This document shows, one piece after another, positions 100 to 35,256 of a stretch of 46,132 nucleotides of DNA. The notes under the pieces were generated by a model. The model did no database searches, was not told the origin of the DNA, and saw nothing but the letters and a program-made list of their open reading frames with translations. Positions within the stretch are counted from its first letter, which is position 1, and every line of letters starts with the position of its first letter. A program made the translations under genes and the position numbers. Source of the stretch: Candidatus Lambdaproteobacteria bacterium RIFOXYD2_FULL_56_26 (GTDB lineage Bacteria; SAR324; XYD2-FULL-50-16); contig MFNF01000012.1 of the NCBI GenBank assembly GCA_001783715.1, forward strand, positions 1 through 46,132, read 5' to 3'.

Positions 100-284
100 G
101 ACCAAACCTACGGTTCTTCGCTTTCCGCCCTCATTTTTCCGGGTAACGATTTTTTCCCACCCAGGCTTTGTGGCACAAAATTTTAGACGGCTTTGGTTGC
201 CGGGCAAAAGATTTTTGTTTAGGATGGCCAGAAGCCGTCCCGATCCAGCAGCAAAAAGCACCAACCTCCTTTGGAACACAAGGC

Positions 285-3200
285 ATGAGCGACTCTGAAA
301 AGGATAAAGAAATCAAGCCGGTTAAAAAGAGGCGCAAACCCAAAGCAAAGCCCGACTCGGAGGTCCAACAAGGGGAAGCTATCCCCATGGAATCGGGAGA
401 GGTCATCTTGGACGGCGGCTCGGATGCAGGCAACTTCGGGGTGATCCTGCCCAAAGGGGAGTATCTCCCCGAGCAACTGGGGGTCATCGCCGTACAGCAC
501 CGCCCCTTGTTCCCACACATGGTGATCCCCTTGGTCGTGGAAGGGGACATCTACCAGCAGACCCTGCTGGAGGCTCAAAAAGGCTTGGGTTATGTAGGGA
601 TCTTCCTTTCCACCGCCGCCTTTGATTCGGAAAAACCCAAGGTTGCGGCCCTCCATAAATATGGGGTGGTAGCCCGGATTGCCAAGGTCTTTTCCCAGGA
701 CAACCACGGTTCTCAGGTTTTGCTTGATGTATTGGAGCGGATCCACATCGTTGAGGCGCTGCCTTCCAAAGACATCATGCGGGCTCGGGTGGAGTACATC
801 CACCAGATCCGCCCCAAGGTCAACGACGAGATTAGGGCCTACTCTCGGGAGATCCTCTCCAACATGAAGGAGTTGATCCGGCTCAACCCCTTGATCAAAG
901 AGGAGCTCAACCAATTTATCAGCCAGATTTCCATGGACGACCCTTCCCGTCTGGCCGACTTTGCCTCCACCTTGACCAGCGCCGACAAGGAAGAACTGCA
1001 GCAGATCCTGGCCACAATCCCGATTGTGGACCGGTTGGGCAAAACCCTGTTGCTGATAAAAAAGGAATTGGAGCTGTCCCGTCTGCAAGCGGAGATCAGC
1101 CAAAGGATCGAAGACCGGATCAGCGAGCACCAGCGGGAATTCTTTTTACGGGAACAGCTCAAGGAGATCCAAAAGGAACTGGGCCTGAGCAAGGACGAAA
1201 AAACCCAGATCATCGAAAAGCTGCAACAAAGGGCCAAAAAACTCTCCTTTTCCCAGGAGGTCAAGGAGCGGTTTGACGAGGAAATGGGCAAGCTGGCGAT
1301 TTTGGATGTCCAATCCCCGGAATTCAACGTCAGCCGCAACTACCTGGAATGGATCGTAGGCCTCCCTTGGGGGGTTTACTCCAAGGACAACCTAGACATA
1401 GTTCGGGCCGAAAAGATTTTGGAAGCCGACCACTACGGCTTGGAAGACATCAAGGAACGGATCATCGAATTCATCGCCTCCATGGCCTTGCGCAAGGAAA
1501 ATGCCGGAACCATCCTCTGTTTTGTCGGCCCTCCGGGGGTCGGAAAAACCTCAATCGGCAAGTCCATCGCCCGAGCGATGGGCCGGAAGTTCTTCCGTTT
1601 TTCGGTGGGCGGCATGAAAGACGAAGCGGAGATCAAGGGCCACCGGCGGACCTACATCGGGGCCATGCCGGGCAAGTTCATCCAGGCACTCAAGGGGGCC
1701 AAGTTTGCCAACCCGGTGATCATGCTCGACGAGATCGACAAGATTGGCAACTCCTTCCAGGGCGACCCGGCCTCGGCTCTTTTGGAGGTTTTGGACCCGG
1801 AACAAAACGGTAGCTTTTCGGACCATTACCTGGACCTGCCCTTTGACCTTTCCAAGGTCTTTTTTATCACCACCGCCAACCAACTGGACACCATCCCCCC
1901 GGCATTGCTGGACCGAATGGAGGTTTTGCGCCTCTCAGGCTACATCGCCGCCGAGAAGATGCACATCGCCAAAAAATACCTGATCCCCAAACAACGCAAG
2001 GCCCACGGCCTGACCGGCGAGCAGCTGGCCTTTGCCGACCCGGCCATCCGAGCGGTGATCGACGGCTACGCCAGGGAAGCGGGGGTCAGGAAGTTGGAAA
2101 ACATGATCCAAAAAATCTGCCGCAAACGGGCCACCGAAATCGTCCGGGGCTCGAAGCTCGAAGGCAGCCGGATTGGCTTGGCCGAGGTCAAGAAGTACCT
2201 GAAAAACCCGATCTTTGAAGACGACGAGATCCACGGCGAAGGCCGCTCCGGGGTCGCAACCGGGCTGGCTTGGACCAGCATGGGCGGCTCTATTTTGTCT
2301 TTGGAGGCCAACTGGGTTGCCTCTGCGGCCAAGTCGTTCCAACAAACCGGCCAGCTGGGCGAGGTGATGGTGGAGTCTTCCAAAATCGCCTACAGCTTTG
2401 TCATGGCCAATGCGGCTCGGTATGGTGGGGACCAGAACTTTTTTGACAACAAGGCGGTCCACCTCCACGTCCCGGCCGGGGCAACCCCCAAAGACGGGCC
2501 TTCCGCCGGGGTCACCATGGCTTCTGTATTGATTTCATTAATGTTGGACCAACCCCTGATCCCCAAGTTGGGCATGACCGGAGAGCTGACCTTGATCGGC
2601 GAGGTGCTGCCCATCGGCGGGCTCAAGGAAAAAATGATCGCCGCCCGAAGGTCGGGCCTCAAGACCATCATCGTCCCGGCGGCCAACAAAAAGGACTATC
2701 TGGAACTGCCGGACCACCTGAAGGAAAAGTTGGAAGTCCATTTTGCCTCAACCTACGACGATGTCTTTAAGGTCGCCTTTGGACGCAAGCCGGTTTTCCC
2801 CCGGCACAACCGTAGGCAGACCGACCATGCTGAAGCCCCAACCGGTCCGCCTGCCAAAGGAGGCGGCAAATCCAAGTTGGCCGGTCCGATCCCTCTGGTG
2901 GCCCAGCTTGAAGTTCAACCCAAGCGCAAACCGGGTAGGCCCAAAAAATCGGCGGCACCGACGGCACCAAAGGGCAAGCTCCGCAAACCGGGCAGACCCA
3001 AAAAGGTGGACTTGGCCAGTCCCTTGACCGGCAACCTCCCCTCGGAAGAAACGGCCCAACCGCCGGTCGGCAGAAAGCCCGGTCGGCCTCGGAAGTCGGA
3101 GGTTTCTACTCAGTTGACCTTGACCGGAGCGGAGAAACCCCAATCACCGGTAAAGCGCAAGCCGGGCAGGCCCAAAAAGACTGCTCCAACGGCAACGATT

Positions 3201-3338
3201 TTGGGAGAAAAAAAAACGGGGACCCGCAAACCCGGTAGGCCCAAAAAGGCGGAGCAGCCCGTTGCGTCCAAAGGCAAGCCCAAGAAGGACACCGCCGGAC
3301 AACCGAAGCGCAAACCGGGCAGACCCAAGAAGTCTTGA
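285..3338 (+). CDS. lon: ATP-dependent protease La (Lon) with a C-terminal AT-hook tail
   Basis: This is a cytoplasmic AAA+ serine protease for misfolded and regulatory proteins. I chose ATG 285 because upstream in-frame codons give non-Lon sequence; it yields 1017 residues. A basic N-terminus (KKRRKPKAKP) precedes the LON substrate-binding domain (about 65-260), a coiled-coil region (about 265-350), Walker A GPPGVGKT (415-422), Walker B around VIMLDEID (478-485), and the protease domain with the Ser740/Lys783 dyad (KDGPSAG; GGLKEK). All catalytic motifs are intact. The Lon fold ends near residue 836. The last 180 residues are a low-complexity Lys/Arg/Pro tail with six R-K-P-G-R-P-(K/R)-K AT-hook cores. 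Typical Lon is about 780-820 residues, so this tail is an addition that should tether the protease to DNA. The gene stands alone and is convergent with the next operon. Confidence 0.96.
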   Translation: MSDSEKDKEIKPVKKRRKPKAKPDSEVQQGEAIPMESGEVILDGGSDAGNFGVILPKGEYLPEQLGVIAVQHRPLFPHMVIPLVVEGDIYQQTLLEAQKGLGYVGIFLSTAAFDSEKPKVAALHKYGVVARIAKVFSQDNHGSQVLLDVLERIHIVEALPSKDIMRARVEYIHQIRPKVNDEIRAYSREILSNMKELIRLNPLIKEELNQFISQISMDDPSRLADFASTLTSADKEELQQILATIPIVDRLGKTLLLIKKELELSRLQAEISQRIEDRISEHQREFFLREQLKEIQKELGLSKDEKTQIIEKLQQRAKKLSFSQEVKERFDEEMGKLAILDVQSPEFNVSRNYLEWIVGLPWGVYSKDNLDIVRAEKILEADHYGLEDIKERIIEFIASMALRKENAGTILCFVGPPGVGKTSIGKSIARAMGRKFFRFSVGGMKDEAEIKGHRRTYIGAMPGKFIQALKGAKFANPVIMLDEIDKIGNSFQGDPASALLEVLDPEQNGSFSDHYLDLPFDLSKVFFITTANQLDTIPPALLDRMEVLRLSGYIAAEKMHIAKKYLIPKQRKAHGLTGEQLAFADPAIRAVIDGYAREAGVRKLENMIQKICRKRATEIVRGSKLEGSRIGLAEVKKYLKNPIFEDDEIHGEGRSGVATGLAWTSMGGSILSLEANWVASAAKSFQQTGQLGEVMVESSKIAYSFVMANAARYGGDQNFFDNKAVHLHVPAGATPKDGPSAGVTMASVLISLMLDQPLIPKLGMTGELTLIGEVLPIGGLKEKMIAARRSGLKTIIVPAANKKDYLELPDHLKEKLEVHFASTYDDVFKVAFGRKPVFPRHNRRQTDHAEAPTGPPAKGGGKSKLAGPIPLVAQLEVQPKRKPGRPKKSAAPTAPKGKLRKPGRPKKVDLASPLTGNLPSEETAQPPVGRKPGRPRKSEVSTQLTLTGAEKPQSPVKRKPGRPKKTAPTATILGEKKTGTRKPGRPKKAEQPVASKGKPKKDTAGQPKRKPGRPKKS
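2918..3338 (+). repeat. Six AT-hook motif repeats in the Lon tail
   Basis: Six near-identical copies encode (K/L/G/T)RKPGRP(K/R)K, separated by 12-30 residue Pro/Ala/Thr/Lys-rich linkers. A seventh degenerate copy reads KGKPKKD. The G-R-P core flanked by basic residues is the classical AT-hook that binds the minor groove of AT-rich DNA. The last copy ends directly at the stop codon. The linkers differ in length and sequence, so the motif is conserved rather than freshly copied. Confidence 0.9.
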
Positions 3339-3359: not shown

Positions 3360-5807
3360 TCAACTGCTCCGCTGTCCCAGCCGGGCCAACCGCAACAGCA
3401 GGCCCGGCACTCGGGCGGGGGAGACGGAAAACTGGGTCAAGCCCATTTCCAGGAGTTCAAGCAGCTCTTCTTCCCCCAAAAGCTGTTCCCCACAAAACCT
3501 TCCGCCCAGGTCGGGCCGAATGCTCCGTCCCTCTTCCAGGCTCAGGCCCATCAGCCTCGCCACTTGGGGGTTGAGCTTTACGAAGGGGTCGCTCATCAAG
3601 TCCAACTGAGTGTAGGCGGTGCTGAACCGGCTCCAGTCTTCCCGAGAAAGGCCCAGGGCCGCTTGGGTCAGGTCGTTGCCTCCAAAGCTGAAGAAGCTGG
3701 CTTCCCTCGCCAGGTTGGCCCCATCCAGGGCCAGGGAGGGCAGCTCCACCATCACCCCCAATTCCAGTTCAAAGGGGGGCTTGGAAAAACCTCGCTCCAA
3801 GGTCCAGCGGTCAACCACCGCTTCGATCCCCTCCACCTCGTTGCGGCCCCGCCGTAAGACCTCAAACTCCGAGCCCAAGGCCACAAAGGGGACCATCAAC
3901 TGCAACCGGGGCAGCCTTGGGGTTTTGCGGTGCAACAGTTCGGCGGCCTCCAAAAAAGCCATCACCTGCAACCGGACCAAAAAGAAGTGGGACAACAACA
4001 GCCGTGCGCCCCGGTAGCCCAGCATCGGATTGGTTTCCCGGAAGGCCTGGAGGGAAAAAAACCAGTCTTGGGCTTCGGTGCCGGGGAAGTGGTCGGCCAA
4101 CCGGGCGGCCATTTTGCGGGAAGGGTCCCCAGGGGCGGGCAACAACTCGTGGCTAGGCAGGTCCAAAAGCCGCAAGCAAAAGACCCCGGTCCCCACCGGC
4201 TCCATCCGGGCCAACAGCGCCCGGCTCAGGGTTTGGGACAGTTGGGTCAACATCTCGGTCCGGCCTTGGTCGCCGTTTAAAACTAGGCCGAGTAGCAGGG
4301 GAAAGAAGGGTTCTTGGACCAACAGATTTTCCATCCGCACCAATCCGGCCCCTTGGGCACCCCAAGCCATGGCCTGGGCGATCCGGTCCGGCTCGTCGCC
4401 ATTGACCAGTACCTTGGCGGGCAAGGGCAGGGTCAACAGCCGAGCCGCCAACCGTTCCAGCACTTCGCTTTTTCCTTGGACCAACCGGGCCTTCCCCCGG
4501 AAGAACTTGGCCGGACCTTGGGTTGGTGCCTCCAGGCTCAACCACTGGCCTTCTTGGACCATCTGTCCCCCAATGCGGACCTGGGTCGCTTCCAGTTTGG
4601 CCTCGGGCAACAACAAGGCCGGCTTGCCCAGGCTCCTGGCCATCACCGGGCCGTGGGAGCTAAAGCCCCCTTGGGCGGTCAAGATCCCTCGGGCCACTTT
4701 GAGAGCCGGAAAGTCCTGGGGAAACGTTTCGGCAACAAACAGTAACTTTGGCCCCGGCTCAGCGGCCAACAAGGCTTTGGCACTGAAATAGACCTTTCCT
4801 ACTGCGGCTCCGGGCGCTCCGGTCAAGGCCGAGCCCTGCCCCAAAGGCTCCAACAGGTCCGTCTCTTCCAGCCGGTCGGCCATCAGGCCTTCCACCTCCT
4901 GGGGGTGCAGAGCCATCGCCAGTCCGGGGGCATCCAAACGGCCCTGCCGGTTGAGGTCCAGCAACATCTCCAACCTCGCCTCCGGGGCCGGGTTGGCCGG
5001 GAAACCAAGCCCCAAGGGCCAGAATCTCCCGGAACCGGCCACAAAAGTGAGGGTAAAAAGGTCCAAACACTGGCCTTCCAAGGTGGCTACGGTTTGCTCC
5101 AAGGCCGGGGCAAAGGCCAGGGCTTCGGTCGGCGGCCAAGCCTCGAAGGGCTGAGGGACAAAGTTGCAGGAGTCAAAAGGCAAAAAGGGTCGGGCCCAAA
5201 ACACCGGGGCCCCCAAGCCTGTTTCCTCGGCTCTGGCCCGGAATTGCCCATAAACCCAGTCTTCCCCTGCCGGTACCCAAGGTGCCGGTTCAAGCAGCAA
5301 CAACCCCTCTTCACCTGCTTGGGCCAACAATAGACCCAACAGCTCTTCAACCTGCCGCTTCGGCCCCACCGGGAACCCTTTGGCCCGGCCCAGGAGCAAC
5401 AGGTTTTTTTTCTCTTCAAAGGTCCCGGTCAGCCGGGAAGGCTTTTTCCCCGACAGGTCGCCGAACCTTTCGAGTAAACGAAGCCAAGCTTCCTGAGCCA
5501 AGGGGCCGGGGAGATTTTTTAGTCCCCCTTCGGTCAGGCCCAGGTATTCCAAAACCCCCACCGGCTCCGGGGAAAGGGGGCCAAAGCAGCGAGCCAGCAA
5601 AAAAAGATTCTCCCCAAACTTGGCCCCGGTTGCCTGCTCCAACTCTCCGAGCCACAAGGCCACTTGGCCGTCCCGCTCCCTCCGCTCCTTGCCGTTCCAT
5701 TCGGCCCCAGTGGTTGAATAGACCGGCAGACCGTCGGGCCGTTGGCAGTACAGATTGAACCACACCGGTTGGGACGGGTGGGGCTGGGCCAGGGTGAACA
5801 GAGTCAT
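3360..5807 (-). CDS. Pyruvate phosphate dikinase-like protein lacking a functional ATP-grasp domain
   Basis: The protein has 815 residues against about 875-900 for PPDK. The C-terminal two thirds align motif by motif with PPDK: the APGAAVGKV segment (331-339), the phospho-histidine loop GGFSSHGPVMAR (His385), GLVRMEN (488-494) for GLxRTE, NPMLGYRG (593-600), FSFGGNDLTQ (706-715), and FCGE with the catalytic Cys772. The N-terminal region still shows PPDK landmarks (LEQATGAKFGEN near 56-67; VLEYLGLTEGGL near 85-96). However, the nucleotide-binding SVRSGA segment between them reads ARCFGPLS, the N-terminal Gly-rich ATP loop is absent, and the usual WxLQTR motif has become WPLGLG. It probably handles PEP/pyruvate and phospho-His but not ATP. 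It starts inside the upstream gene (ATGA overlap) with AAAGG 8 bases before the ATG, so it is probably co-translated with the HPr-like protein. Confidence 0.8.
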   Translation of the reverse strand: MTLFTLAQPHPSQPVWFNLYCQRPDGLPVYSTTGAEWNGKERRERDGQVALWLGELEQATGAKFGENLFLLARCFGPLSPEPVGVLEYLGLTEGGLKNLPGPLAQEAWLRLLERFGDLSGKKPSRLTGTFEEKKNLLLLGRAKGFPVGPKRQVEELLGLLLAQAGEEGLLLLEPAPWVPAGEDWVYGQFRARAEETGLGAPVFWARPFLPFDSCNFVPQPFEAWPPTEALAFAPALEQTVATLEGQCLDLFTLTFVAGSGRFWPLGLGFPANPAPEARLEMLLDLNRQGRLDAPGLAMALHPQEVEGLMADRLEETDLLEPLGQGSALTGAPGAAVGKVYFSAKALLAAEPGPKLLFVAETFPQDFPALKVARGILTAQGGFSSHGPVMARSLGKPALLLPEAKLEATQVRIGGQMVQEGQWLSLEAPTQGPAKFFRGKARLVQGKSEVLERLAARLLTLPLPAKVLVNGDEPDRIAQAMAWGAQGAGLVRMENLLVQEPFFPLLLGLVLNGDQGRTEMLTQLSQTLSRALLARMEPVGTGVFCLRLLDLPSHELLPAPGDPSRKMAARLADHFPGTEAQDWFFSLQAFRETNPMLGYRGARLLLSHFFLVRLQVMAFLEAAELLHRKTPRLPRLQLMVPFVALGSEFEVLRRGRNEVEGIEAVVDRWTLERGFSKPPFELELGVMVELPSLALDGANLAREASFFSFGGNDLTQAALGLSREDWSRFSTAYTQLDLMSDPFVKLNPQVARLMGLSLEEGRSIRPDLGGRFCGEQLLGEEELLELLEMGLTQFSVSPARVPGLLLRLARLGQRSS

Positions 5808-6616
5808 CGGAAAAACCTTTGCCCCGATTTGAGCATCACGGAGTAATTGCCGCTACAGGCCTTGGTCATCCAGGCCTTGAGCCGGGAGAGGTCCGAAAAG
5901 GCCGGGCCTTCCACCCAAAAGGAGATTCGGTCCCCCATCCTGACCCGGCCCCACTGGAAGAGATTGTAAAGGTCTTGGACCGGTTGGCCTTGGTGGGAAA
6001 GCCGCACCTTGAGCAGGGGGTAGGTTTCTTCGTAGTCTCGCAGCACTTTGCCCAACGCCTCCAGGTTGCCGTGGTGAAACAGCTCGTTGGTCACCTCCAC
6101 CAGGTGTTTGGGGCTTTTGTTTTGCAAAACCGCCGGGGCCTTGCCAAACCCCTTTTGGGGCCAATCGACCGGCTCGGCTTTCAGGTGCTCCAGGTCCAAA
6201 GGGGTGCGCAGCCGCAGCAGGTCGGACAAAGCCGCCAGCAGGGTGCCGGGGGAATGTTTGGGGTCGGGGGTTGACTCCTTGAGGTAAAGAACCACCAACT
6301 CCAAGGGCTCCAAGGAGACCCGAGAAGCGGCCAAGGAGGGCAGGACCCAGACCAGCCCGGTCGTACGGGGCAGCAAAAAACAAAGCTCGAACCCCGCCAA
6401 GCGCTTGAGTTCGACCCACAGGGCTTCCCAGGTCAAAAAAGTGGATTTGAGGTTCAAACTCCGGCAGGCAAACCCGGAGGCACAAAGGTAGCGGTGGACC
6501 GCCCCCTGCCCTTGCCCGGCCAGTTGGGCCAGGGCATCGGGTAAGGAGGGGCTGGGAGGGAGGTCGGGACCTGTCGGTGCAAAAGCAAGTCCCGCCGTCA
6601 CGGTCTCGGAACCCAA
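5804..6616 (-). CDS. Putative degenerate EIIA-like / HPr-like two-domain protein
   Basis: The protein has about 270 residues from a TTG start at 6616; a GTG at 6601 is equally possible and would give 265. Residues 170-252 follow the HPr pattern. VEVTNELFHHGN aligns with the HPr active-site loop (VxNxxGLHARP), placing His182 at the phospho-His position but without the following Arg and Pro. It is followed by QGQPVQDLYNLFQWG and MGDRISFWVEG, which match the HPr S46 helix and GDEIxIxxEG strand. Residues 75-150 weakly resemble a PtsN-type EIIA domain (CFLLPRT where ALPHAR is usual, so the phospho-His is an Arg). These are fold-level resemblances read by eye. It lies 4 bases after the CfpA-like gene and overlaps the PPDK-like gene by 4, which supports a shared pathway. 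Confidence 0.5.
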   Translation of the reverse strand: MGSETVTAGLAFAPTGPDLPPSPSLPDALAQLAGQGQGAVHRYLCASGFACRSLNLKSTFLTWEALWVELKRLAGFELCFLLPRTTGLVWVLPSLAASRVSLEPLELVVLYLKESTPDPKHSPGTLLAALSDLLRLRTPLDLEHLKAEPVDWPQKGFGKAPAVLQNKSPKHLVEVTNELFHHGNLEALGKVLRDYEETYPLLKVRLSHQGQPVQDLYNLFQWGRVRMGDRISFWVEGPAFSDLSRLKAWMTKACSGNYSVMLKSGQRFFR

Positions 6617-6620
6617 CCGG

Positions 6621-8495
6621 TCAGGTCCGGGCAGTCAACCCGGGAGAGCCGACGAAGCTGGGGGTGTATTGGTCCGCAGTCGCCGCTTCCAAGTGTTTTT
6701 CCCGAGAAAGATCGGAGAAGCCGGTGCTGACCGAGGCCAAAAACTCGGTGATCACGTTGCTGACCGCCTGCATGGTATTTTCCTTGCGCTTGATCGTGGT
6801 CAGGTTGATCTCCAAGAACAGCCCGGCCCGCAAATGGTAGGGGTTCACCTGCCGGTTGTAGGTCTCGAACTGGCCTTCCAGAAAGTCCAACCGCTGGTCT
6901 AAGATCAGCCGCTCCGGCGGGTTGTCGTACTTGAAGGTGTCGTGGATCTTGCCCCGCAACAATTGGAACTTGCGGGTCAAGTATTTGCGGCGCTCCGCAA
7001 AGGTATCGTTGAGCTTTTCCATCTCGCTTTTCTTGGGCTGGACAAAAAAGACTTCATCCCATTCCTTGACCGGTGCAGCTTCAACCGGTTCGGCCACCGG
7101 CTGTGGGTCCGAGCCCCGTTTGCCCCGTTCGTCTTTGGCCGCAGGTTCGGCTCCGCCCAAAAACATCTTGGCTACCGATTGGTAATCCAAAAAGCCCTGT
7201 TCCGCTTTGTGGGCCTCATGGACCCGCTCGTAAACGTCCCAAAGTTTTTTGGCCTGCTGATCAAACTCATCGATCTGGACGCAGTAGGCGTTCCTTTGTT
7301 CCCGGAGTTGTTTTTCATCATAATAGACCAAGGTGGCCGAATACCGCTCATCGGGCAGGTTGTGGATCGACAGCTCCGAATACTCCCGGATCACCACCTT
7401 CCTGGCCTGTTTGAAGTTTTCGATGTGCTGGTAGCCCAGTCTGGTTTTATCCAGGATCTGGGTCAAGGCGGTCACCGCTTTGTTGAAGCCCCGGTTGCGC
7501 AGGTTTTCCCGGTCCACGATCCGTTGGATGTTCTCCCGAACGTTGAGCGGATCGGGCTGCCCGGCTTGGGAGTCGGAACCGATCCCCACCAGGGTCTTGA
7601 GGAAATCCTTAGAGACCCATTTGTACTGGGGGGACTCGTTGTTGTCCTCAAAATCGATGTATTTTTCCAGCCGCTTGAGCTTCTCGATGATCTGGTCCGC
7701 CTCGCTCAGCTCCACCTGCCCATCTTCGGCCAGCTTGCGGTTGAGGCTGCTGATCTCTTGGTCCAGTTGGCGGGTGATGTAATCGCTCAAGATCTCCCGG
7801 ACAATCGATTCGGTACCGATCTGGAAGTGGAAGATCGGGTTGAGCAATTCCGATTCGGCCACGTTGATCGAAAGGCAAACATCGGTCACCGTGTCCGGCT
7901 TGATTTTGTTGTCCGAGTAGTGGCCTTTGACCAGGGTGAAGGCGTTTTCGGTGCCCACCATCAGGCCGATATCGGTTTTTTCCCGCAGCAGTTTGTTGGT
8001 CCGGGCTTGCAGGTCGGTCACCCCGTGTTCCAAGTGGCCTTGGAGGTGGTTGTAGATGTTGACGATCGACCGTTCCAGCGCCGTGTTGTTGAACTGTTCG
8101 AGACCACCGATCTCGTCGATCAGTTCGCCCACTTCCTGGGGGGTGTAGCGGTTGAGGTTCTTGAGTTCCTCTTGGTCCACCAGATCCCGCAGCTTCTTGG
8201 ACATCTCGTCTTCGACGGTGACCAAGTAGCGGCTGTACATGTTGTGGAAGCCCTGGTTGAAGTAGTTGTGCAGGATTTCCTTGATTGAGCCACTGACATG
8301 CAACTTTTCAAGCACCTCGGGGGGCAGCTTGGAGTTGACATGGTTGAGGATCTTATCGACTTCTTCATCGATAATCCTTTGACTCTCTACATACTCGTCC
8401 CGGTTGTCTCGATTCAGACTGTTCCTAGAGCCCACCGCAGAGGGTTCTTCGGGATGGAACCGGTTAGAGCCGTGAGCTTTTTCGTCTCGAATCAT
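6621..8495 (-). CDS. CfpA-like cytoplasmic filament protein
   Basis: The predicted protein has 624 residues, is acidic and mostly helical, and lacks a signal peptide or membrane segment. From memory of treponemal CfpA, the resemblance is extended and collinear. It covers NxKLPPEV, NMYSRYLVTVEDEM, LNRYTPQEV, GGLEQFN, SIVNIYNHLQGHLEHG, KTDIG, TENAF, DPLNVRENIQRIVD, NRGFNKAVTALTQILD, NLPDERY and the C-terminal EQRLDFLEGQFETYNRQVNPYH. CfpA forms ribbon-like filaments under the inner membrane of treponemes and is needed for normal chromosome distribution and cell division. The gene has its own good promoter and a GAGG site before the ATG. It is first in an operon with the HPr-like and PPDK-like genes. 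The C-terminal acidic tail seen in treponemes is not evident here. Confidence 0.7.
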   Translation of the reverse strand: MIRDEKAHGSNRFHPEEPSAVGSRNSLNRDNRDEYVESQRIIDEEVDKILNHVNSKLPPEVLEKLHVSGSIKEILHNYFNQGFHNMYSRYLVTVEDEMSKKLRDLVDQEELKNLNRYTPQEVGELIDEIGGLEQFNNTALERSIVNIYNHLQGHLEHGVTDLQARTNKLLREKTDIGLMVGTENAFTLVKGHYSDNKIKPDTVTDVCLSINVAESELLNPIFHFQIGTESIVREILSDYITRQLDQEISSLNRKLAEDGQVELSEADQIIEKLKRLEKYIDFEDNNESPQYKWVSKDFLKTLVGIGSDSQAGQPDPLNVRENIQRIVDRENLRNRGFNKAVTALTQILDKTRLGYQHIENFKQARKVVIREYSELSIHNLPDERYSATLVYYDEKQLREQRNAYCVQIDEFDQQAKKLWDVYERVHEAHKAEQGFLDYQSVAKMFLGGAEPAAKDERGKRGSDPQPVAEPVEAAPVKEWDEVFFVQPKKSEMEKLNDTFAERRKYLTRKFQLLRGKIHDTFKYDNPPERLILDQRLDFLEGQFETYNRQVNPYHLRAGLFLEINLTTIKRKENTMQAVSNVITEFLASVSTGFSDLSREKHLEAATADQYTPSFVGSPGLTART

Positions 8496-12031: not shown

Positions 12032-12739
12032 CTAAGGTACCAAGGTTTTTTCCACCTCAAAAGGCAGAGCTTTGGGGTCAAAAAGATGAGCCCGAATCTG
12101 TTTCTTCCATTTTTTTGAGCTGCCGTCCCACCGAAAGCCCAGGTCCTTGGCCTGTTGCCGGTTCTCGTACGACACCAGAGCTACCAACTCCAACTTGGGC
12201 GAGGAAGCGTTGGCCCAAACCTCTTCGATCTTGTAGTGACTCAAAACCCGAAACATGGAAAGCACATCGGTCACCGCCCGGTGGGCGAAGGGGTTCACAA
12301 ATCCATGGACGGCACTGAGGTAAACCAAACTTTTGGAAGAAACCGACTTTGGGTAATCTACATCCAAAAGGGTACAAATCCAAGTCTTTTCAGGCAGCTC
12401 ACGTCCCCAGCGGCTGTAGAAGCGGGTTAAAAAGCCTTTGTCAAAAGCGGCATTGTGGGCCACACAGCCATCGGCCTGTTCCAACAAAGAGCCCAGGGCG
12501 GAAAAAAAGAGGTCGTCCGGGGCCTTGCCAAACCGGTGCAACATCTGGGTCCGAATCCCGGTCAACTCTTCGATTTCCTTAGGCAAGGCCAAGTCCGGTT
12601 TTTCCAGGATCATCTCGCTGAACAGCCGGACCGGTTGGTTGGCCTCCGTGTCCCAGAGCACCGCCCCGACCTCAATCACCAAGTCTTTGTTCGGGTCCAG
12701 CCCGGTGGTTTCCAAATCCAACCCCAACAACAACATCAA
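12032..12739 (-). CDS. DEDDh 3'-5' exonuclease with a DUF5710-like C-terminus
   Basis: This 235-residue DnaQ-superfamily exonuclease shows Exo I LGLDLETTG (Asp8, Glu10), Exo II AHNAAFD and Exo III HRAVTD, giving the D-E-D-H-D set for two-metal catalysis. The last about 55 residues (VALVSYENRQQAKDLGFRWDGSSKKW and on) look like a DUF5710 module, which is often appended to DNA-processing enzymes. It is therefore neither the plain polymerase III epsilon subunit nor RNase T. It overlaps the HypB-like gene (ATGA), forming an operon with two hydrogenase-accessory-like genes; that association is hard to explain functionally. Confidence 0.85.
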   Translation of the reverse strand: MMLLLGLDLETTGLDPNKDLVIEVGAVLWDTEANQPVRLFSEMILEKPDLALPKEIEELTGIRTQMLHRFGKAPDDLFFSALGSLLEQADGCVAHNAAFDKGFLTRFYSRWGRELPEKTWICTLLDVDYPKSVSSKSLVYLSAVHGFVNPFAHRAVTDVLSMFRVLSHYKIEEVWANASSPKLELVALVSYENRQQAKDLGFRWDGSSKKWKKQIRAHLFDPKALPFEVEKTLVP

Positions 12740-13431
12740 TCCCCCTGTTTTTTAGCCTGTACAGCAATCCATTCGATCCATTCGTCCATCCCTTCGCCGG
12801 TCTCAGCCGAAAGCTCGATCAACTCCGCCTTGGGATGCACCAGCTTCAACGCCCGGACAAAGGCCGACTTGTTGAAGGACAGGTAAGGCAGAAGGTCGGA
12901 CTTGGTGAGGATCACCAGATCCGAGCCCTTGACCCGGTGGCTGAACTTAAAGGGCTTGTCTTCCCCTTGGGTGGGGCAAAAGAGGCTGACCTTGGCGGTC
13001 TCGCCCAAGTCCAGGTCCATAGGGTAGGCTTTGGCTCCGATCCCTTCGATGAAGACCATCCCCTTGTCCTTGAGCGGTCTGGCCAAGATGGTCTGACCGA
13101 CCAGCTTGGCATCCAACCGGCCTTCCTCGCTGGCTTTGACCCCCAGGGCATTGATCCCGGCCTTGGAGTACCGCCCGGCATCCAAACCGGCACAACCGTA
13201 GGAATCGATGACATTGATGTAATATCTTTTTTTGATCCGCTCGATGGTTTTGAGCAACAGCTGGGTCTTCCCGGCACCAGGGCAGGAGAGCAGGTGCAGG
13301 GCCAAAATCCGGTGGACCTGGAAAAATTCCCGGTTCAGCCGAGCCGCCCGGTCATTGTACCGCAGGAATTCCCGCTCAAAGCGTTTTAGCTCTTTGCGCC
13401 CAAAATCTGTGGGGCCAGTGGATTCACTCAT
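12736..13431 (-). CDS. HypB-like GTPase lacking the nickel ligands
   Basis: This 231-residue SIMIBI-class GTPase starts at ATG 13431, overlapping the upstream stop (TAATG). It matches HypB across its length: P-loop SCPGAGKT (49-56), MVFIEGIGAKAYP (125-137) where HypB has LFIENVGNLVCP, DLGETAKVSLF, QGEDKPFKF, TKSDLLPY for NKxDLLPY, and LSAETGEGMDEWIEW. The residues that define HypB metal binding are missing. The GCHLD motif reads EGRLD (103-107), NLVCP has Tyr136 in place of Cys, EGD of switch I reads IDS, and there is no N-terminal CxxCGC motif. It keeps GTPase features but should not carry nickel in the known way. It pairs with the HupK-like gene. Confidence 0.85.
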   Translation of the reverse strand: MSESTGPTDFGRKELKRFEREFLRYNDRAARLNREFFQVHRILALHLLSCPGAGKTQLLLKTIERIKKRYYINVIDSYGCAGLDAGRYSKAGINALGVKASEEGRLDAKLVGQTILARPLKDKGMVFIEGIGAKAYPMDLDLGETAKVSLFCPTQGEDKPFKFSHRVKGSDLVILTKSDLLPYLSFNKSAFVRALKLVHPKAELIELSAETGEGMDEWIEWIAVQAKKQGD

Positions 13432-14645
13432 TACAACTCTTCTTCCTGAAGGATTTTTACCGGCATTTCCAAAAAGGGGTCCAACGCCTTGGACCAAGCC
13501 CGTGCCAACCGAGCCAGACCCGGTTTGTCGCTCCCCTTGACCCCGACCAGGGCCTGCAAAAAGACTCCCTTGGGGCAAAGGTTCCACTGCTGGGGAGAGA
13601 TGATCTGGTACTGCAAGATCTTGTCGGCCTCCACCCTCAGCCGGTGGACCAGCCTGCCCCGTGCGGACTCGACCTGAGCCAGCCCCAGGCCACTTTTTTT
13701 GCTCACCCCGGTAGAGGCTACCGCAATCTCCAGACCTTGGGACAAAAATTTAAGACTTTGCCCCAAATCCACCAGCCTCGCCAAGACCCGGCTGACCGCC
13801 AGATTGGGGTTGGTCTTGAGGTATGCTTGCAGCAACGGGCTTTTTTCGGTCCGGGCAAAGGCCCCGGTTTCCTGGGGTTTGCCTGCCAAAACCGGGTGGT
13901 ACAACATCCCCACCGCATCGGCCGAAGAAAGCACCTTATGCCATTCCTGCTCCGATGCCCAGGGCAGAATGGGGACCAACGGATTTTTTAGTGCCGGAAG
14001 TTGCCGGTAGTACCGGAGCACCCTGGCACCCAAGGCAGAGTCGTTTTCCAGCCATTGGGCCCACTGGCCTTGGGTCCATTTGAGGAACAAGTCCAGCGAG
14101 GTGCCCAAGAGCCTCTCCTCAAGCCCAGTCCTGGCCTCCAAGGCCACCTCGCCAATCACCCGGACATCCGCCTTGGGGGTGAAGTCGCCAAAGAAAAACG
14201 GGGGGTGGTCTCCGTACAGCGCCCGGGTCAACCGTTCTTCCAGCAGCCCCACTGGCGGCAAAACCGGGGCCGGATTACCCAAAAGTTTGGCCCAGTCCTG
14301 CTCTACCCGGACCCAGGTTTGGGCCAGATTCTCAAAATGGACCAGCAAGGCTCTGGCCTTGTGGTGGTAAGGATTGGGATGCAGGCCATAGGCCTCTTCC
14401 AAGGCCAGCAAGGCCGCAAACACCTGGGCCTTTCCCCCGATGGGGTACAGCCGGGCCAACAGCTCCAAAACCTCTTCGGGCCCACGACCGACCAAAAGAT
14501 TTTGGATCTCCAAAGGCCGTTTGCTGTGCAACACCGCACGGGTCACCTGCCCTAAATTTTGGTAAAGGACCAGTTCAAAACTGTCGTCAACAAGCAACAT
14601 TCCCATGACCCTGTTTTGGCCGTTTGTATAAGACCCAGGCGACAT
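13431..14645 (-). CDS. HupK-like protein (degenerate [NiFe]-hydrogenase large-subunit paralogue)
   Basis: The protein has 404 residues and no signal peptide. ARLYPIGGKAQVFAALLALEEAYG (around 64-87) occupies the position of the large-subunit 'RICGICxxxHxxAAxxAxExAxG' motif, with both cysteines replaced. ARALLVHFENLAQTWVRVEQDWAKLLG follows as in HupK. The C-terminal GLAQVESARGRLVHRL and YQIISPQQWNLCPKG match the HupK 'VExARGRLxHR...YRIxAPTxWNFHPxG' pattern. HupK proteins assist [NiFe]-hydrogenase assembly in proteobacteria without binding the metal centre. No structural hydrogenase or other hyp gene lies in the window. The alternative ATGs 14606 and 14600 cannot be excluded. Confidence 0.7.
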   Translation of the reverse strand: MSPGSYTNGQNRVMGMLLVDDSFELVLYQNLGQVTRAVLHSKRPLEIQNLLVGRGPEEVLELLARLYPIGGKAQVFAALLALEEAYGLHPNPYHHKARALLVHFENLAQTWVRVEQDWAKLLGNPAPVLPPVGLLEERLTRALYGDHPPFFFGDFTPKADVRVIGEVALEARTGLEERLLGTSLDLFLKWTQGQWAQWLENDSALGARVLRYYRQLPALKNPLVPILPWASEQEWHKVLSSADAVGMLYHPVLAGKPQETGAFARTEKSPLLQAYLKTNPNLAVSRVLARLVDLGQSLKFLSQGLEIAVASTGVSKKSGLGLAQVESARGRLVHRLRVEADKILQYQIISPQQWNLCPKGVFLQALVGVKGSDKPGLARLARAWSKALDPFLEMPVKILQEEEL

Positions 14646-20027: not shown

Positions 20028-20096
20028 GGGCTTTTGAAGCGAAGGCCCATCTTTGCCACAGCAAAAGGTTTTCCACAATCCCCAGGGGGATGCTTG

Positions 20097-21683
20097 ATGA
20101 TTCGTTTGTTCCGCCCCGTTTTGGCCCTGATCTGTTTGGGCCTCTTTGCCATGCCCGCCCTGGCGGTGACCTTGGACACCGAAAAGCTGGCCGATAAAAT
20201 CGCCAAGTCCATCGCCCAGGTGGCTAACCCCAAGTACGCCACCGTTGCCTTTTCCCGAATCCAAGGGGGGCTGGACCTGGAAACCAAAAACGAGCTGATC
20301 GACTTCACCAACGTCTCGATCGTCCGCAGCCGCTCTTTCCGGGTGGTGGACCGCAGCAAGCTCAACCTGATCATCGCCGAGCAAAAGTTCAACCTCTCGG
20401 GCATGGTCAGCCAAGACACCTACAAGGAATTGGGCAAACTGCTGGGGGTGGACCTGTTCATTTATGGCCGGTTCTACAAGGATGTGCTGGTGATGAAGGC
20501 CATAGATACCGAGCGCTCCACCTTGGTCTGGTCAGAGATTTTCCAACTCACCGAGCTGACCCCCCAAACCGTGGCGATCAGCCAGCTGGCTTCCCAGTTT
20601 TCCGACTCCCTCAAAAAGGATGCCAAACGGCTCAAGTCCTCCAAGATCGGCCAGCTCAGCTTTTGGAACATCGCCAGCCCCTTCGACGGGGACCTGATGG
20701 TGGACTTCCTCTCCGCCGCCTTGACCAAAGACGGGAACTTCCAGGTAGTGGACCGGGAGAATCTGGCCCTGATCCTGGAGGAACAAAAGCTCTCGATGTC
20801 CGATTTCATCGATGAGCAAAAGGCCAAAAAAATGGGCGAGCTTTATGGGGTGGACGGCTTTATTTACGGCAACATCACCCAAAAGCGGGGCCAGTGGGTC
20901 GCCTCCTTCAAGTTGCTCAACATCTACAGCGGGGTCATCGAATGGGCGGACCTGCTGCGTTTTGGGGAAGAACAGTCCGATGACCGCAAACCGGTAGCCA
21001 CCCAAGTTTCCCAATCCAACCTGGAAATGGCTCTAGTTCCGGCCGGAGAGTTCATCATGGGCAGCGATGAGGGGGACCTTGTCTCGGCCCCAAAGTTTCG
21101 GATGCAGTTGGGCAGCTTTTTGATCGACAAGACCGAAGTCAGCAATTCCGCCTACGCTGCCTACACCCAACGGTTCCAACACCGCACCCCGCCCCATTGG
21201 CAAAACGGCATGGTGCCCAAGGGGCAAGAGGATTGGCCGGTGGTCAACGTCAACTGGCAGGATGCCAAACGTTACTGCCAAACCGAAGGCAAACGTCTGC
21301 CCACCGAATCGGAATGGGAAAAGGCCTACCGGGGGACCAACGGCAACACCTACCCTTGGCCGGGCTCCCAGTTTGACCGGGATGCCGCCCGGACCGTGGA
21401 ATCGGGGGTGCTCAACCCGATGGGGGTGGACGAATCGAACAGCGACATCTCTTCCTTCGGGGCCAAGCACATGGCGGGCAACGTCCGGGAATGGACCGAA
21501 TCCACCTTGCTGCCCTACCCCAACAGCAACTACCGCAACCCCAAGATGGGCCGGGAAAAGGTGATCCGAGGGGGCTCCTGGGCGGAGGTCCAGGCTGCGG
21601 CGGTAGGTTGGATGCGGGGCAGTTCGGACGAGAAGTTCGCCTGGAAGGATGTAGGCTTTCGGTGCGCCAAAGACGCTTTCTGA
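20097..21683 (+). CDS. CsgG-like double domain fused to a formylglycine-generating-enzyme/sulfatase-modifying-factor domain
   Basis: This 528-residue exported protein has a signal peptide ending at PALA (about residue 22). Two similar CsgG-like modules follow (roughly 25-165 and 170-300). Each has the pattern of a conserved VVDR segment (FRVVDRSKLNLIIAEQK and FQVVDRENLALILEEQK), a 'KxxGxLxGVDxFIYG' stretch, and a final strand pair. The C-terminus (about 310-528) is an FGE-sulfatase domain: MALVPAGEFIMGSDEGD, VVNVNWQDAKRYC, LPTESEWEKAYRG, MAGNVREWTES, VIRGGSWAE and a final GFRCAKDAF. It lacks the paired active-site cysteines of true SUMF1, so it is more likely a PvdO-like or structural variant. 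An outer-membrane or periplasmic assembly role is inferred. Confidence 0.85.
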   Translation: MIRLFRPVLALICLGLFAMPALAVTLDTEKLADKIAKSIAQVANPKYATVAFSRIQGGLDLETKNELIDFTNVSIVRSRSFRVVDRSKLNLIIAEQKFNLSGMVSQDTYKELGKLLGVDLFIYGRFYKDVLVMKAIDTERSTLVWSEIFQLTELTPQTVAISQLASQFSDSLKKDAKRLKSSKIGQLSFWNIASPFDGDLMVDFLSAALTKDGNFQVVDRENLALILEEQKLSMSDFIDEQKAKKMGELYGVDGFIYGNITQKRGQWVASFKLLNIYSGVIEWADLLRFGEEQSDDRKPVATQVSQSNLEMALVPAGEFIMGSDEGDLVSAPKFRMQLGSFLIDKTEVSNSAYAAYTQRFQHRTPPHWQNGMVPKGQEDWPVVNVNWQDAKRYCQTEGKRLPTESEWEKAYRGTNGNTYPWPGSQFDRDAARTVESGVLNPMGVDESNSDISSFGAKHMAGNVREWTESTLLPYPNSNYRNPKMGREKVIRGGSWAEVQAAAVGWMRGSSDEKFAWKDVGFRCAKDAF

Positions 21684-31266: not shown

Positions 31267-34200
31267 TCATTTGCCGTGGAAAAATTGGTTGACCACCTGC
31301 AAGGAGATTTGCTCCGCAGTGGCCCCAAAGGTTTGGTCGATCAAAGCTTCAAAGATCGACTCCCGGTTGTCGTAAATCTCGACCCCGTCCACATCCACAA
31401 AGACGTTGCTCATAATCGCCAAGTGGTACTGCTCTCTGAGGGCCGCATCGTCCCTAAGCTTGTGGGTCGGCAGCTTGCCTACATAAACCAGAACCAGGGA
31501 GTTTTTTGACTTCCTCGGTTTGGGCTCCTTCATACACAGCTCTTCCTTGTACCGGCACAGCTCCAGCGCTTCCTCAAAGAGGGTAACCGCAGGCAGGTAC
31601 AACACCCGTTCGGACAACTCTCCGTTCCAGATCCGGTTGATCCGCCCCTTGATCGTCTCGATTCCCTTTGATTCCGCCTTACCCAGCCCTGCCCGTTCTT
31701 CGTAAACCAGAGCCGGGGTACAGCCGACCGGGTATTTCTCCACCAGCAGTGAATAGGCGGCGGCAATGTTTTTTTCCGTATGGCTTTTGGTGGGCTTGGT
31801 GGTTTCCAAAATCACCGCCCCCAACACAAACTGGGGAAAGGCATGGCGCTTGCGGAAAAATCCGTCCACCAGTGCGGTTTTCAGCGCTTTTTCCTTGCTG
31901 ATCACCTCGCCCAAAAACTGGTTGGCCCGAGAGAGCATCTTGGTCTCCCGTTCCAAAAGCGGGATGTATTGGGTTTTAAGCAAAATCCGGGTCGAAGGCA
32001 GGGCCTTGGACATGGCGACCTTCTCCAGGTTGCCTTCCTGGGAGGCCAGATAGGCCAACTCCGCCTTTTCACCGGCGATCTCTTGGCCAATCGCCTTGAG
32101 CCCTTGCCGCCAGTTGACCATCTCCTTGGCCAGTTCGTTGATCTCTTCCCGCTTGGCGGCTTCTTCCAACAACTCCACATAGTTGAGCACCTTCAACTGC
32201 CGTTCCGGGCGCAGAGCCTCCTTAAAGGCGGTTTGGGCTTCGTTCAGCTTGGCCCGCAGCTCATTGAGCTCTTGGCGGATCTCCTTGGGCACCTCCTCCT
32301 TGGAGGTCAGCAGTTCCTGCAACTTGGGCAACGAGGTGGGGTCCTGGAGCAGGGTTTGGGCGGCTTTGAGCCTGAATTTGTTGTAGTCGAACTGGACCCT
32401 GGCCTCGATCCAATCGTTTTGGGCCTTGAACAGTTCGTTTTCCAGCTCCCCCAACCTTGCGGTCACCTTGTTTTGCTGCCCGGCCAGGGCAATCAGCCGC
32501 TCGGTTTCAGCTTGGTAGTACTTCATGAAGGCAAAGAGGTTGCCTCGCTCTTTTTCAGGGTCCTGGAACATGCCTTTGATCGAGATGTTGCGCAACTCGG
32601 TCAACTGGGCCTTCAGCTCCTTGGACAGGGCCAAGACCCTTTCCTTGGCCTGTTCCTGGGTTTGCGGTTGGTCTTGGGCGACTACGGCGCTCAGTTTTTT
32701 TACCTGCAACTCCAACCGCTCCGCTGGCATGTCGGCCAACTCCCCGGCAAAGGCCTTGACCTGCTCGAACATCTTTTGCCGCTGCCGCACCCAAAGGGCC
32801 TTTTGGAACAGGCTGGTGTAACCCAGGACCTTGTCAAAGTACTGGAAGGCAAATCCATGGGCCCGAGAGAAGGGGTTGTAGATGTTGACCACCTGCAACT
32901 TCTTGGGTTTGTGGGCCTCCAGGATGGCTTTCCGCAAGGCCTCCAGTTCCCCGGTCAGCTGGACCAAAAAGGCCTCCAGTCCCTCAGGGGTCAAGCTGCG
33001 CCCCAAAAGCTGCTCCAGCCTTTGGTGCCCTTGGTCGTGCCGGGTTTGGATCTCCGCCTGCTCTTCCGAGAGCTGGTCGATGTTTTTTTGTTTCCCCGCC
33101 AACTGGGCCAAAAAGATCCCCTTGATCTTTTCGAGCAGCACCACATAGGCCTGTTCCTTGTTGGCCGGGTCTTCCAGGAAGGACAGCTCCTGGGCCAAGT
33201 GGTGCTTTTGCTCGTCCGCCAGATAGGTCAGCTCGGCCAAGGTGTGCTTGTACTGGTGGTGGAAGCTTTGGTTCAGTTCCTTGGCCTTTTCATTCACCTT
33301 TTGGGTGAAGCCCCGCATGAACTGGATGAAAAGCAGTTCCTCCTCTTCGCTTTCCGACAAAAAGATCTCGGTGTTGAGCACCCCGTTCAAACAAAAGGCC
33401 GGGTAGGCGGTATTTTGGTAGTGAGTGATCAGGTCCTTGCGTTTGGTGAAGACCACCAAGTCCGGGTGGAAGTCCGGGTTGAGCGCCAGCTCCCGGATGT
33501 TTTTCAGGTAAAAGTACATCTTTTCGCACAACAGCCGAGCCCGCTGGACCAATTCCCTTTTTTTGAAAAAATGGAAGTTGCCACTGATAAAGTCCCGAGA
33601 GGCCGGATCCAGACGGAACTCTTCTTCGTCCTTGGCCAAAAGGTCGGAGTCCTCCACTTGGTCGGTGCCCATCTCCTGGTCCACCTGAAGGTCGTCTTGG
33701 AAACGGTTGTGCAGGTTCAACTTAAAAAAGTCGTCCATGTACTTGGTCAGGTCGCCCAGCTCGGTGACCATGCCTTCCAAGACACTGGGGGTGGCTTCCT
33801 TGGGGTTTTTGAGGCCCAGGTAGGCACGGGTGTTTTTGGTGAGCCGGTCAAAGTCGTGGCGGGTAAAATTGGGGCTTTGGCTCAGGTCCAAGATCTGGGT
33901 AAACAATTCCTGGATGGTCTGGTGCAGTTTGCCGAAGTCCTCTTCCATCTTGCCGGGGTTTTTGAGGTCCAACGGATCAAACCCGACGCAAGGGGAGGAG
34001 AGGGGCAGCACCTGCAAGGTGTTGAGCGCCGACAAGACCAACTGGGCCGAGAGGTCCCCGGCCACCACCTTGCGCTCCTTGAGCATCTCCAGTTCCAACC
34101 CGGACCGACGCAGCAGCCGGGCTTTTTCATATTCCACATACCGGGCGGCCAAAAACTGTTCGGCCAAGACGAAGTTGGATTCCCCTCGGTTGAAGGGGAC

Positions 34201-35256
34201 CACCTTGTGGATCACTGCCGTTTCTTCCTCCCGCCAAAGCTTCAGCCGCTGGACCCGAGCGATGTGGTAGTCCTTGGAGCCCACCCCACGGGTGAAAAAT
34301 ATCTGTTGGGTGTCCAGGTTGACTTCGATTTCGGTGATTTCGGCCGGGGTCAAGTCCAGGGTCTGGTTGCCCACCCGGACCCGGAAGAAGTCGATCTCTT
34401 CGGGTTTGTAAACCTTGGCGCTGATGTTGGCGGTGACAAACTGCCCGGTGCCAATGAACTCCCCACCCACCGAAACGCCCAAAAAATAGCGGCTTTGGGC
34501 CGAGGCAATCTTGAGCCCAGCGATGTCTTTCCAGCCCAGGAACAAGGAATGTTTGGTCTGGCTCAACATACCCGAGGAGTCCTTCTTTTTGCTGAAGTAC
34601 CCCAGAGCGGTTCTCAACTTGCCAATGGGGAACTGCATCTCCTTGTCCACCCCCCCTTGGGTCAGTTTGAGGTGGATGTCCGAAAAAAAAGGTTTGTCCA
34701 AAATGGCCGGTGGCCGTTTGCCCCGCTCCAGGTTGCCGAACTCTTCGGGCTTGAGGATCGACTTCCAGGGCTCGGGTTTGTTTTCCTCATAAAAGTCCAC
34801 CCTACGGTTTTTGCCGTTGGGATGGGTCAAAAAGGCGCTGAGGTATCCGAGCAGGTCGTCGTCGGACATGTGGGTCAGGACAAAGGGAGGGAAGTTGAAG
34901 TCCCGGTCCAGCTGGAAAGGCAATTCAAAGTAGGAGACCACTTCCTTGTTGGCGATGTTGCCCAGAATGTAGGCCAGCACCTTCTCTTCGTTGGCCTTGA
35001 GGGCCTTGATCATCTCCAGCTTGGTCTTGCCGTCCACCTCCTTGCCCACCGCCAGACTCTTGGGCACAATCAGGCTTTCCAGACCTGCCGGGACATATTC
35101 GTTGGTGTTTGCCCCGTTAAAAACCACCAGTTCGCAGGCGGTCTCCATCTCGCCAATGGGCAAGGGACGCTCCTTCAACTCCTTTTTGGCCCGAGAGAGC
35201 AGCAGGGCTCGGTCCGCCTCTTCCAACCTTCGTTGGGCCTCAAAGAAGTGTTTCAT
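31267..35256 (-). CDS. Giant 1329-residue coiled-coil protein of unknown function
   Basis: I do not recognise a family. There is no signal peptide or TM segment. Residues 1-about 640 are mixed alpha/beta (for example an NISAKVY...VRVGNQTLDLTPAEITEIEVNL strand block around 275-320). Residues about 660-1110 are dominated by heptad-like helices rich in Glu, Gln, Lys and Leu (LAGKQKNIDQLSEEQAEIQ; AEIAGEKAEL; ELNELRAKLNEAQ). The final about 200 residues are globular again (SLVLVYVGKLP; VFVDVDGVEIYDN). The 3990-base gene overlaps the permease gene upstream (ATGA), so it is translationally coupled to it and to the ligA-trkA run. The long antisense frame it carries is a compositional shadow. Confidence 0.8.
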   Translation of the reverse strand: MKHFFEAQRRLEEADRALLLSRAKKELKERPLPIGEMETACELVVFNGANTNEYVPAGLESLIVPKSLAVGKEVDGKTKLEMIKALKANEEKVLAYILGNIANKEVVSYFELPFQLDRDFNFPPFVLTHMSDDDLLGYLSAFLTHPNGKNRRVDFYEENKPEPWKSILKPEEFGNLERGKRPPAILDKPFFSDIHLKLTQGGVDKEMQFPIGKLRTALGYFSKKKDSSGMLSQTKHSLFLGWKDIAGLKIASAQSRYFLGVSVGGEFIGTGQFVTANISAKVYKPEEIDFFRVRVGNQTLDLTPAEITEIEVNLDTQQIFFTRGVGSKDYHIARVQRLKLWREEETAVIHKVVPFNRGESNFVLAEQFLAARYVEYEKARLLRRSGLELEMLKERKVVAGDLSAQLVLSALNTLQVLPLSSPCVGFDPLDLKNPGKMEEDFGKLHQTIQELFTQILDLSQSPNFTRHDFDRLTKNTRAYLGLKNPKEATPSVLEGMVTELGDLTKYMDDFFKLNLHNRFQDDLQVDQEMGTDQVEDSDLLAKDEEEFRLDPASRDFISGNFHFFKKRELVQRARLLCEKMYFYLKNIRELALNPDFHPDLVVFTKRKDLITHYQNTAYPAFCLNGVLNTEIFLSESEEEELLFIQFMRGFTQKVNEKAKELNQSFHHQYKHTLAELTYLADEQKHHLAQELSFLEDPANKEQAYVVLLEKIKGIFLAQLAGKQKNIDQLSEEQAEIQTRHDQGHQRLEQLLGRSLTPEGLEAFLVQLTGELEALRKAILEAHKPKKLQVVNIYNPFSRAHGFAFQYFDKVLGYTSLFQKALWVRQRQKMFEQVKAFAGELADMPAERLELQVKKLSAVVAQDQPQTQEQAKERVLALSKELKAQLTELRNISIKGMFQDPEKERGNLFAFMKYYQAETERLIALAGQQNKVTARLGELENELFKAQNDWIEARVQFDYNKFRLKAAQTLLQDPTSLPKLQELLTSKEEVPKEIRQELNELRAKLNEAQTAFKEALRPERQLKVLNYVELLEEAAKREEINELAKEMVNWRQGLKAIGQEIAGEKAELAYLASQEGNLEKVAMSKALPSTRILLKTQYIPLLERETKMLSRANQFLGEVISKEKALKTALVDGFFRKRHAFPQFVLGAVILETTKPTKSHTEKNIAAAYSLLVEKYPVGCTPALVYEERAGLGKAESKGIETIKGRINRIWNGELSERVLYLPAVTLFEEALELCRYKEELCMKEPKPRKSKNSLVLVYVGKLPTHKLRDDAALREQYHLAIMSNVFVDVDGVEIYDNRESIFEALIDQTFGATAEQISLQVVNQFFHGK

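Follow-up and report, generated by a model that had tools for sequence, protein, structure and literature searches.

The window, a 46,132-nucleotide stretch that is part of the 3.08 Mb genome of Candidatus Lambdaproteobacteria bacterium RIFOXYD2_FULL_56_26, carries three minus-strand genes in the order cfpA, a partner gene and a gene for a protein resembling pyruvate, phosphate dikinase (PPDK-like; Table 1). cfpA, the product of which passes the NF040882 cut-off for cytoplasmic filament proteins, is apparently the first gene of the operon. It ends 4 bp before the partner gene, and the partner stop overlaps the start of the PPDK-like gene by 4 bp (ATGA), bearing out the coupling of these two genes that a preliminary description of this DNA had proposed. 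The adjacent cfpA and the conserved three-gene set were absent from that description. The host genome has three cfpA copies (contigs C12, C48 and C44), only one of which lies beside the pair, and the same holds in most genomes of families f1 and f4.

Table 1. Features of the cfpA operon in the window
Feature	Position	Strand	Basis
cfpA, cytoplasmic filament protein CfpA	6621..8495	-	NF040882, 638.4 bits versus cut-off 500
Partner, 270 aa read from TTG 6616	5804..6616	-	Conserved pair with PPDK-like gene
Partner N-terminal domain, not EIIA by profile search	6197..6613	-	Alignment A6 searches
Partner C-terminal HPr-like domain (alignment A1, ~100 residues)	5807..6118	-	41-member alignment; AF2 topology; no family match
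Partner His181, near-invariant (ELFHNGNVEAW in relatives)	6074..6076	-	Alignments of relatives
PPDK-like protein, 815 aa	3360..5807	-	Pfam, NCBIfam and PDB searches; residue tables versus true PPDKs
Shortened, diverged N-terminal region replacing the ATP-grasp domain, ~residues 1-320	4848..5807	-	No PPDK_N; K22, D321, E323 and Q335 not conserved
His385, phospho-acceptor (PPDK His455)	4653..4655	-	Alignment; present in every copy examined
PEP-binding barrel PF02896 with Arg491, Arg546, Glu688, Asn711, Asp712 and Cys772	3393..4418	-	Profile and residue alignment

Elsewhere in the window, the plus strand encodes a Lon-type protease (168-3338) with a C-terminal tail of repeated AT-hook-like KRKPGRPKK motifs, which suggests that this Lon may be DNA-bound, and a CsgG/LpoB-like region fused to an FGE-sulfatase domain (20034-21683). 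On the minus strand, a protein of 404 aa, the C-terminal part of which weakly matches NiFe-hydrogenase (PF00374), is encoded beside a CobW/HypB-like GTPase (12736-14645), and a 1329-aa ORF with no Pfam match (31267-35256) lies opposite an 1188-aa open frame (31780-35346).

Profile searches of the PPDK-like protein returned PEP-utilizers_C (E = 1.9e-38) and PEP-utilizers (E = 2e-10) from Pfam, with no match to PPDK_N, and its PDB matches were PPDKs, spanning residues 242-807. The protein scored 270.6 against the PPDK model TIGR01828, which has a cut-off of 843.45, and partially matched the PTS enzyme I (EI, PtsI) model TIGR01417 (E = 1.8e-26). Alignment to PPDKs revealed an intact PEP side, with all seven residues from His385 to Cys772 present and these two aligning exactly with the catalytic His and Cys, whereas the ATP-grasp residues K22, D321, E323 and Q335 were missing or replaced (Clostridium symbiosum PPDK numbering and residue functions). 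An Arg aligned at R92 in the window protein and in one relative (G003), in a changed and unrelated context. The preliminary description had likewise reported a phospho-His loop, PEP site and Cys772 in a protein lacking ATP-grasp signatures. The likeness to PPDK (solved chains 1kbl and 2dik) lies in the His domain and the PEP/pyruvate barrel, and the window protein differs from PPDK in its lost ATP-grasp residues, its score below the family cut-off, its linkage to cfpA and its co-encoded His-bearing partner. With EI it shares a homologous C-terminal barrel and, presumably, PEP-to-His chemistry without a nucleotide, but it has the PPDK domain order and no match to PF05524 (PEP-utilisers_N, HPr-binding), for which the sole match in the host genome is at C1:384963. 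The host separately encodes a true PPDK (C66), EI (C1) and HPr (C42), and its own PPDK is 33% identical to the PPDK-like protein over the C-terminal half. Residue by residue, the comparison shows a PPDK paralogue with a non-functional ATP side and an intact PEP/pyruvate side and swivelling His.

A controlled comparison with true PPDKs revealed the same asymmetry in spirochaetes. In all 33 spirochaetal cfpA-type copies, K22 was replaced by R, R92 by V or I, and E323 by K, R, M or I, and Q335 was also lost, whereas H455, R561, R617, E745, N768, D769 and C831 were kept in 33/33; together with six copies from the window's family, the ATP half was dead and the PEP half and His were retained in 39/39. 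Eight true PPDKs (seven spirochaetal and the host genome's own) kept K22, R92, D321, E323 and Q335 as well as the PEP side. Identity among spirochaetal cfpA-type copies was 0.38 in the N-half versus 0.60 in the His and PEP half, compared with 0.62 and 0.60 among true PPDKs. An N-half motif (MVYGNxGxxSxSG-TRNIxTG) partly persists in spirochaetes. The cfpA-type copies of 20 genomes scored 269-711 against TIGR01828, all below the cut-off of 843, and 15 of these genomes encode a separate PPDK above it. Scores against alignment A4 separated the PPDK-like copies (1055-1387 bits) from true PPDKs, which came next at 786 bits or less, with the exception of one fragment (G589, 811 bits). Myxococcal matches were set aside as true PPDKs not linked to cfpA and served as the outgroup. 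In a quick tree, one branch with support of 100 set all true PPDKs apart from the PPDK-like copies, which are therefore a single lineage provided that the tree is rooted within the true PPDKs; finer placements in this tree are unsure owing to long branches (the window, L057 and L061).

The partner protein carries a second conserved histidine. The consensus of the 41 sequences in A1 (TNELFHNGNVEAWKxIIESY...SLFKWGKVKHGxxIxFxVxG...LQKYLxEGAS) includes a His present in more than 90% of members, the single exception being a stand-alone paralogue (L073). This residue is His181; the preliminary description had placed the phospho-His at His182, a position that is Asn in most partner relatives. AF2 models, built from two-sequence alignments only and of low confidence (46.5 and 66.6), predicted a beta-alpha-beta-beta-alpha-beta-alpha-beta order for the C-terminal domain (pLDDT 66.6, pTM 0.59) and placed the conserved His just before helix 1, at the predicted N-cap. 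The domain shares with HPr (PF00381) the predicted beta-alpha-beta-beta-alpha-beta-alpha order and a His where the first helix begins, but differs in an invariant Gly at the equivalent of HPr Arg17, a longer first helix, an extra C-terminal strand and fusion to an N-terminal domain with no family match.

Searches did not assign the partner to either PTS family. None of the 41 C-terminal domains matched the Pfam HPr profile (PTS-HPr), no HPr or EIIA profile in Pfam or NCBIfam matched the window partner, and the domain profile did not find HPr in the PDB. With hhalign, comparison with true HPrs gave a probability of about 1%; only 4 of 200 column-permuted controls equalled the real score, but this is no evidence for HPr, because unrelated PPDK slices scored higher than the real comparison. 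Foldseek returned no HPr among the top 50 matches of the C-terminal domain model, and with the full-length model ranked an HPr (1y4y, TMt 0.62) 25th among matches that were not HPr-specific. The signals for HPr from profiles, hhalign and Foldseek were not significant or not specific. The EIIA-like N-terminal domain of the preliminary description gained no support: EIIA was not among the first 25 of 36 families listed for 39 partner N-terminal domains, nor was it found when alignment A6 was searched against the PDB. As the sequence and fold searches failed to identify HPr, we call the C-terminal domain HPr-like in layout only. Its HPr homology is unproven, and what stands of the earlier HPr-like assignment is the near-invariant His and the predicted order of elements.

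We searched 218 Spirochaetota genomes, collected through a spirochaete marker, for all three genes. CfpA was found in 97, the partner domain in 93 and the PPDK-like protein in 93; 88 genomes had all three, 118 had none and 12, mostly incomplete assemblies, had some, counts that are not phylogenetically independent. The 36 neighbourhoods read mostly ran cfpA, partner, PPDK-like gene with short gaps (9-55 bp between the latter two in most). In family f273 the PPDK-like gene lies about 6 kb further downstream, and in family f270 the three genes are unlinked, on different contigs. Among 58 relatives searched for the PPDK-like protein and the partner, the two are adjacent in G002, G003, G006, G008 and G009, and likewise in family f4, where one genome (G034) has a partial partner. 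The window's own family has the pair together in six genomes and jointly lacks it in four (G001, G004, G005 and G007) that keep CfpA, so that some genomes have CfpA but not the pair. The module is not a product of local decay.

We propose that the PPDK-like protein takes the phosphate of PEP onto His385 and releases pyruvate, a reaction that its retained residues make probable. As this phosphate should have no path onward to AMP and PPi, its likeliest acceptor would be the near-invariant His181 of the partner encoded alongside, an assignment that we hold tentatively. The pair, phosphorylated or PEP-loaded, would then alter how CfpA filaments assemble, anchor or bundle, and filament state would track the PEP:pyruvate ratio; gene linkage and co-occurrence make such an effect about an even prospect. 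Such a pair would work like EI plus HPr while standing outside the PTS, and the term 'PTS-like' used in the preliminary description is misleading, since the genome has its own EI and HPr and the conserved neighbour is CfpA rather than a sugar permease. For the whole reading, in which a PEP-fed phospho-His module would act on CfpA filaments and both the transfer and the target are inferred, we estimate a probability of roughly 0.4. Its broadest form, in which a relay pairing an ATP-dead PPDK with a non-PTS His carrier would control the intermediate-filament-like CfpA cytoskeleton according to PEP:pyruvate from spirochaetes, including Treponema pallidum, to Lambdaproteobacteria, is unlikely.

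Family f4 complicates this proposal. Its eight copies (L065-L072) have lost R561 (to A, P, G, K, Q and others) and D769 (to M, T or I) and have partly lost N768, R617 and C831, yet in f4 the operon persists, together with His455 and the His of the partner, despite the loss of both the ATP and the PEP sites. Judged by these residues, the f4 pair cannot take phosphate from PEP, so the earlier idea of a PPDK remnant acting like EI fits the 39 ATP-dead copies with an intact PEP half and His but not this family. With the PEP site gone and both histidines kept, catalysis cannot be the full account: in f4 the pair may be structural, or may accept phosphate from another donor, or its histidines may have a second role. 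Separately, f4 loci often carry another cfpA, flanking the pair from the opposite side. Stand-alone relatives of the partner C-terminal domain also occur in f4 genomes (L073, 5293-5709 on the plus strand; G029:C20; G039:C328); in the L073 copy the His is missing (EFVYGN), and the L073 and L074 loci lack cfpA.

The retention of the operon in f4 after loss of both active sites, together with near-strict co-occurrence with CfpA, is consistent with a structural pair, in which the PPDK-like protein would be a pseudoenzyme that at most senses PEP/pyruvate, and both proteins would serve CfpA filaments as accessory, bridging or anchoring parts without any phosphate transfer; a paper title cited in PMC3398590 names components that bridge and anchor treponemal filaments. 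We consider this somewhat unlikely, as it does not explain why the PEP residues and His are perfect in 39/39 non-f4 copies while the ATP half drifts. This perfect retention of the PEP site outside f4 is likewise left unexplained if the partner were phosphorylated by the ordinary EI and HPr of the cell, with the PPDK-like protein draining or buffering phosphate by reverse flow or as a phosphatase or sensor. True EI is encoded in 19/20 genomes and true HPr in 51/58 relatives, and such a donor would account for the two histidines of f4, but the module was not seen linked to genes for EI, HPr or permeases, and we regard this alternative as improbable.

The PPDK-like protein of T. pallidum has been discussed as a glycolytic PPDK, TP0746, converting PEP, AMP and PPi to ATP (PMC10013896). 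Published values are 901 aa for TP0746, with nt 810772 and 811414 and PF02896 at 521-874, and 678 aa for TP0748 (PMC3373638, PMC10013896). In a T. pallidum-type genome (G429; one 1,139,633-base contig), the PPDK-like protein is 901 aa (810,671-813,376) with PF02896 at 521-874 and CfpA is 678 aa, and in lengths, position and domain span the two match TP0746 and TP0748. The TP0746-type protein (locus L141, 2672-5377, minus strand) has K22 replaced by R, R92 by V, D321 by E, E323 by R and Q335 by E with the PEP side intact, and scores 608 against the TIGR01828 cut-off of 843; no PPDK above this cut-off was found in G429, which has EI only. A metabolic role for the PPDK-like protein as an active PPDK, making pyruvate and ATP from PEP, AMP and PPi, agrees with annotation, that literature, the overall architecture and the partly persisting N-half motif, but is very improbable given the five unconserved ATP-half residues, the sub-cut-off scores and the separate PPDKs described above.

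The module starts with CfpA, as do the loci of T. denticola and T. pallidum, where the gene order is the same, and in T. denticola, for which there is a cfpA mutant, TDE0842-44 (cfpA, a hypothetical gene and a 'PPDK') were repressed together (PMC3914990). A literature search of partial coverage returned no paper naming a role for the pair, and the papers found on treponemal CfpA filaments do not describe a filament role for the two companion genes. The module ties two uncharacterised genes to the CfpA cytoskeleton, the regulation and accessory parts of which seem undescribed in those papers. As TP0746 lacks the ATP-half residues, metabolic models that use it as an ATP-making PPDK would need revision. 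If the PEP-fed phospho-His module is real, it would give the phosphate of PEP a second route to a carrier protein, alongside that through EI.
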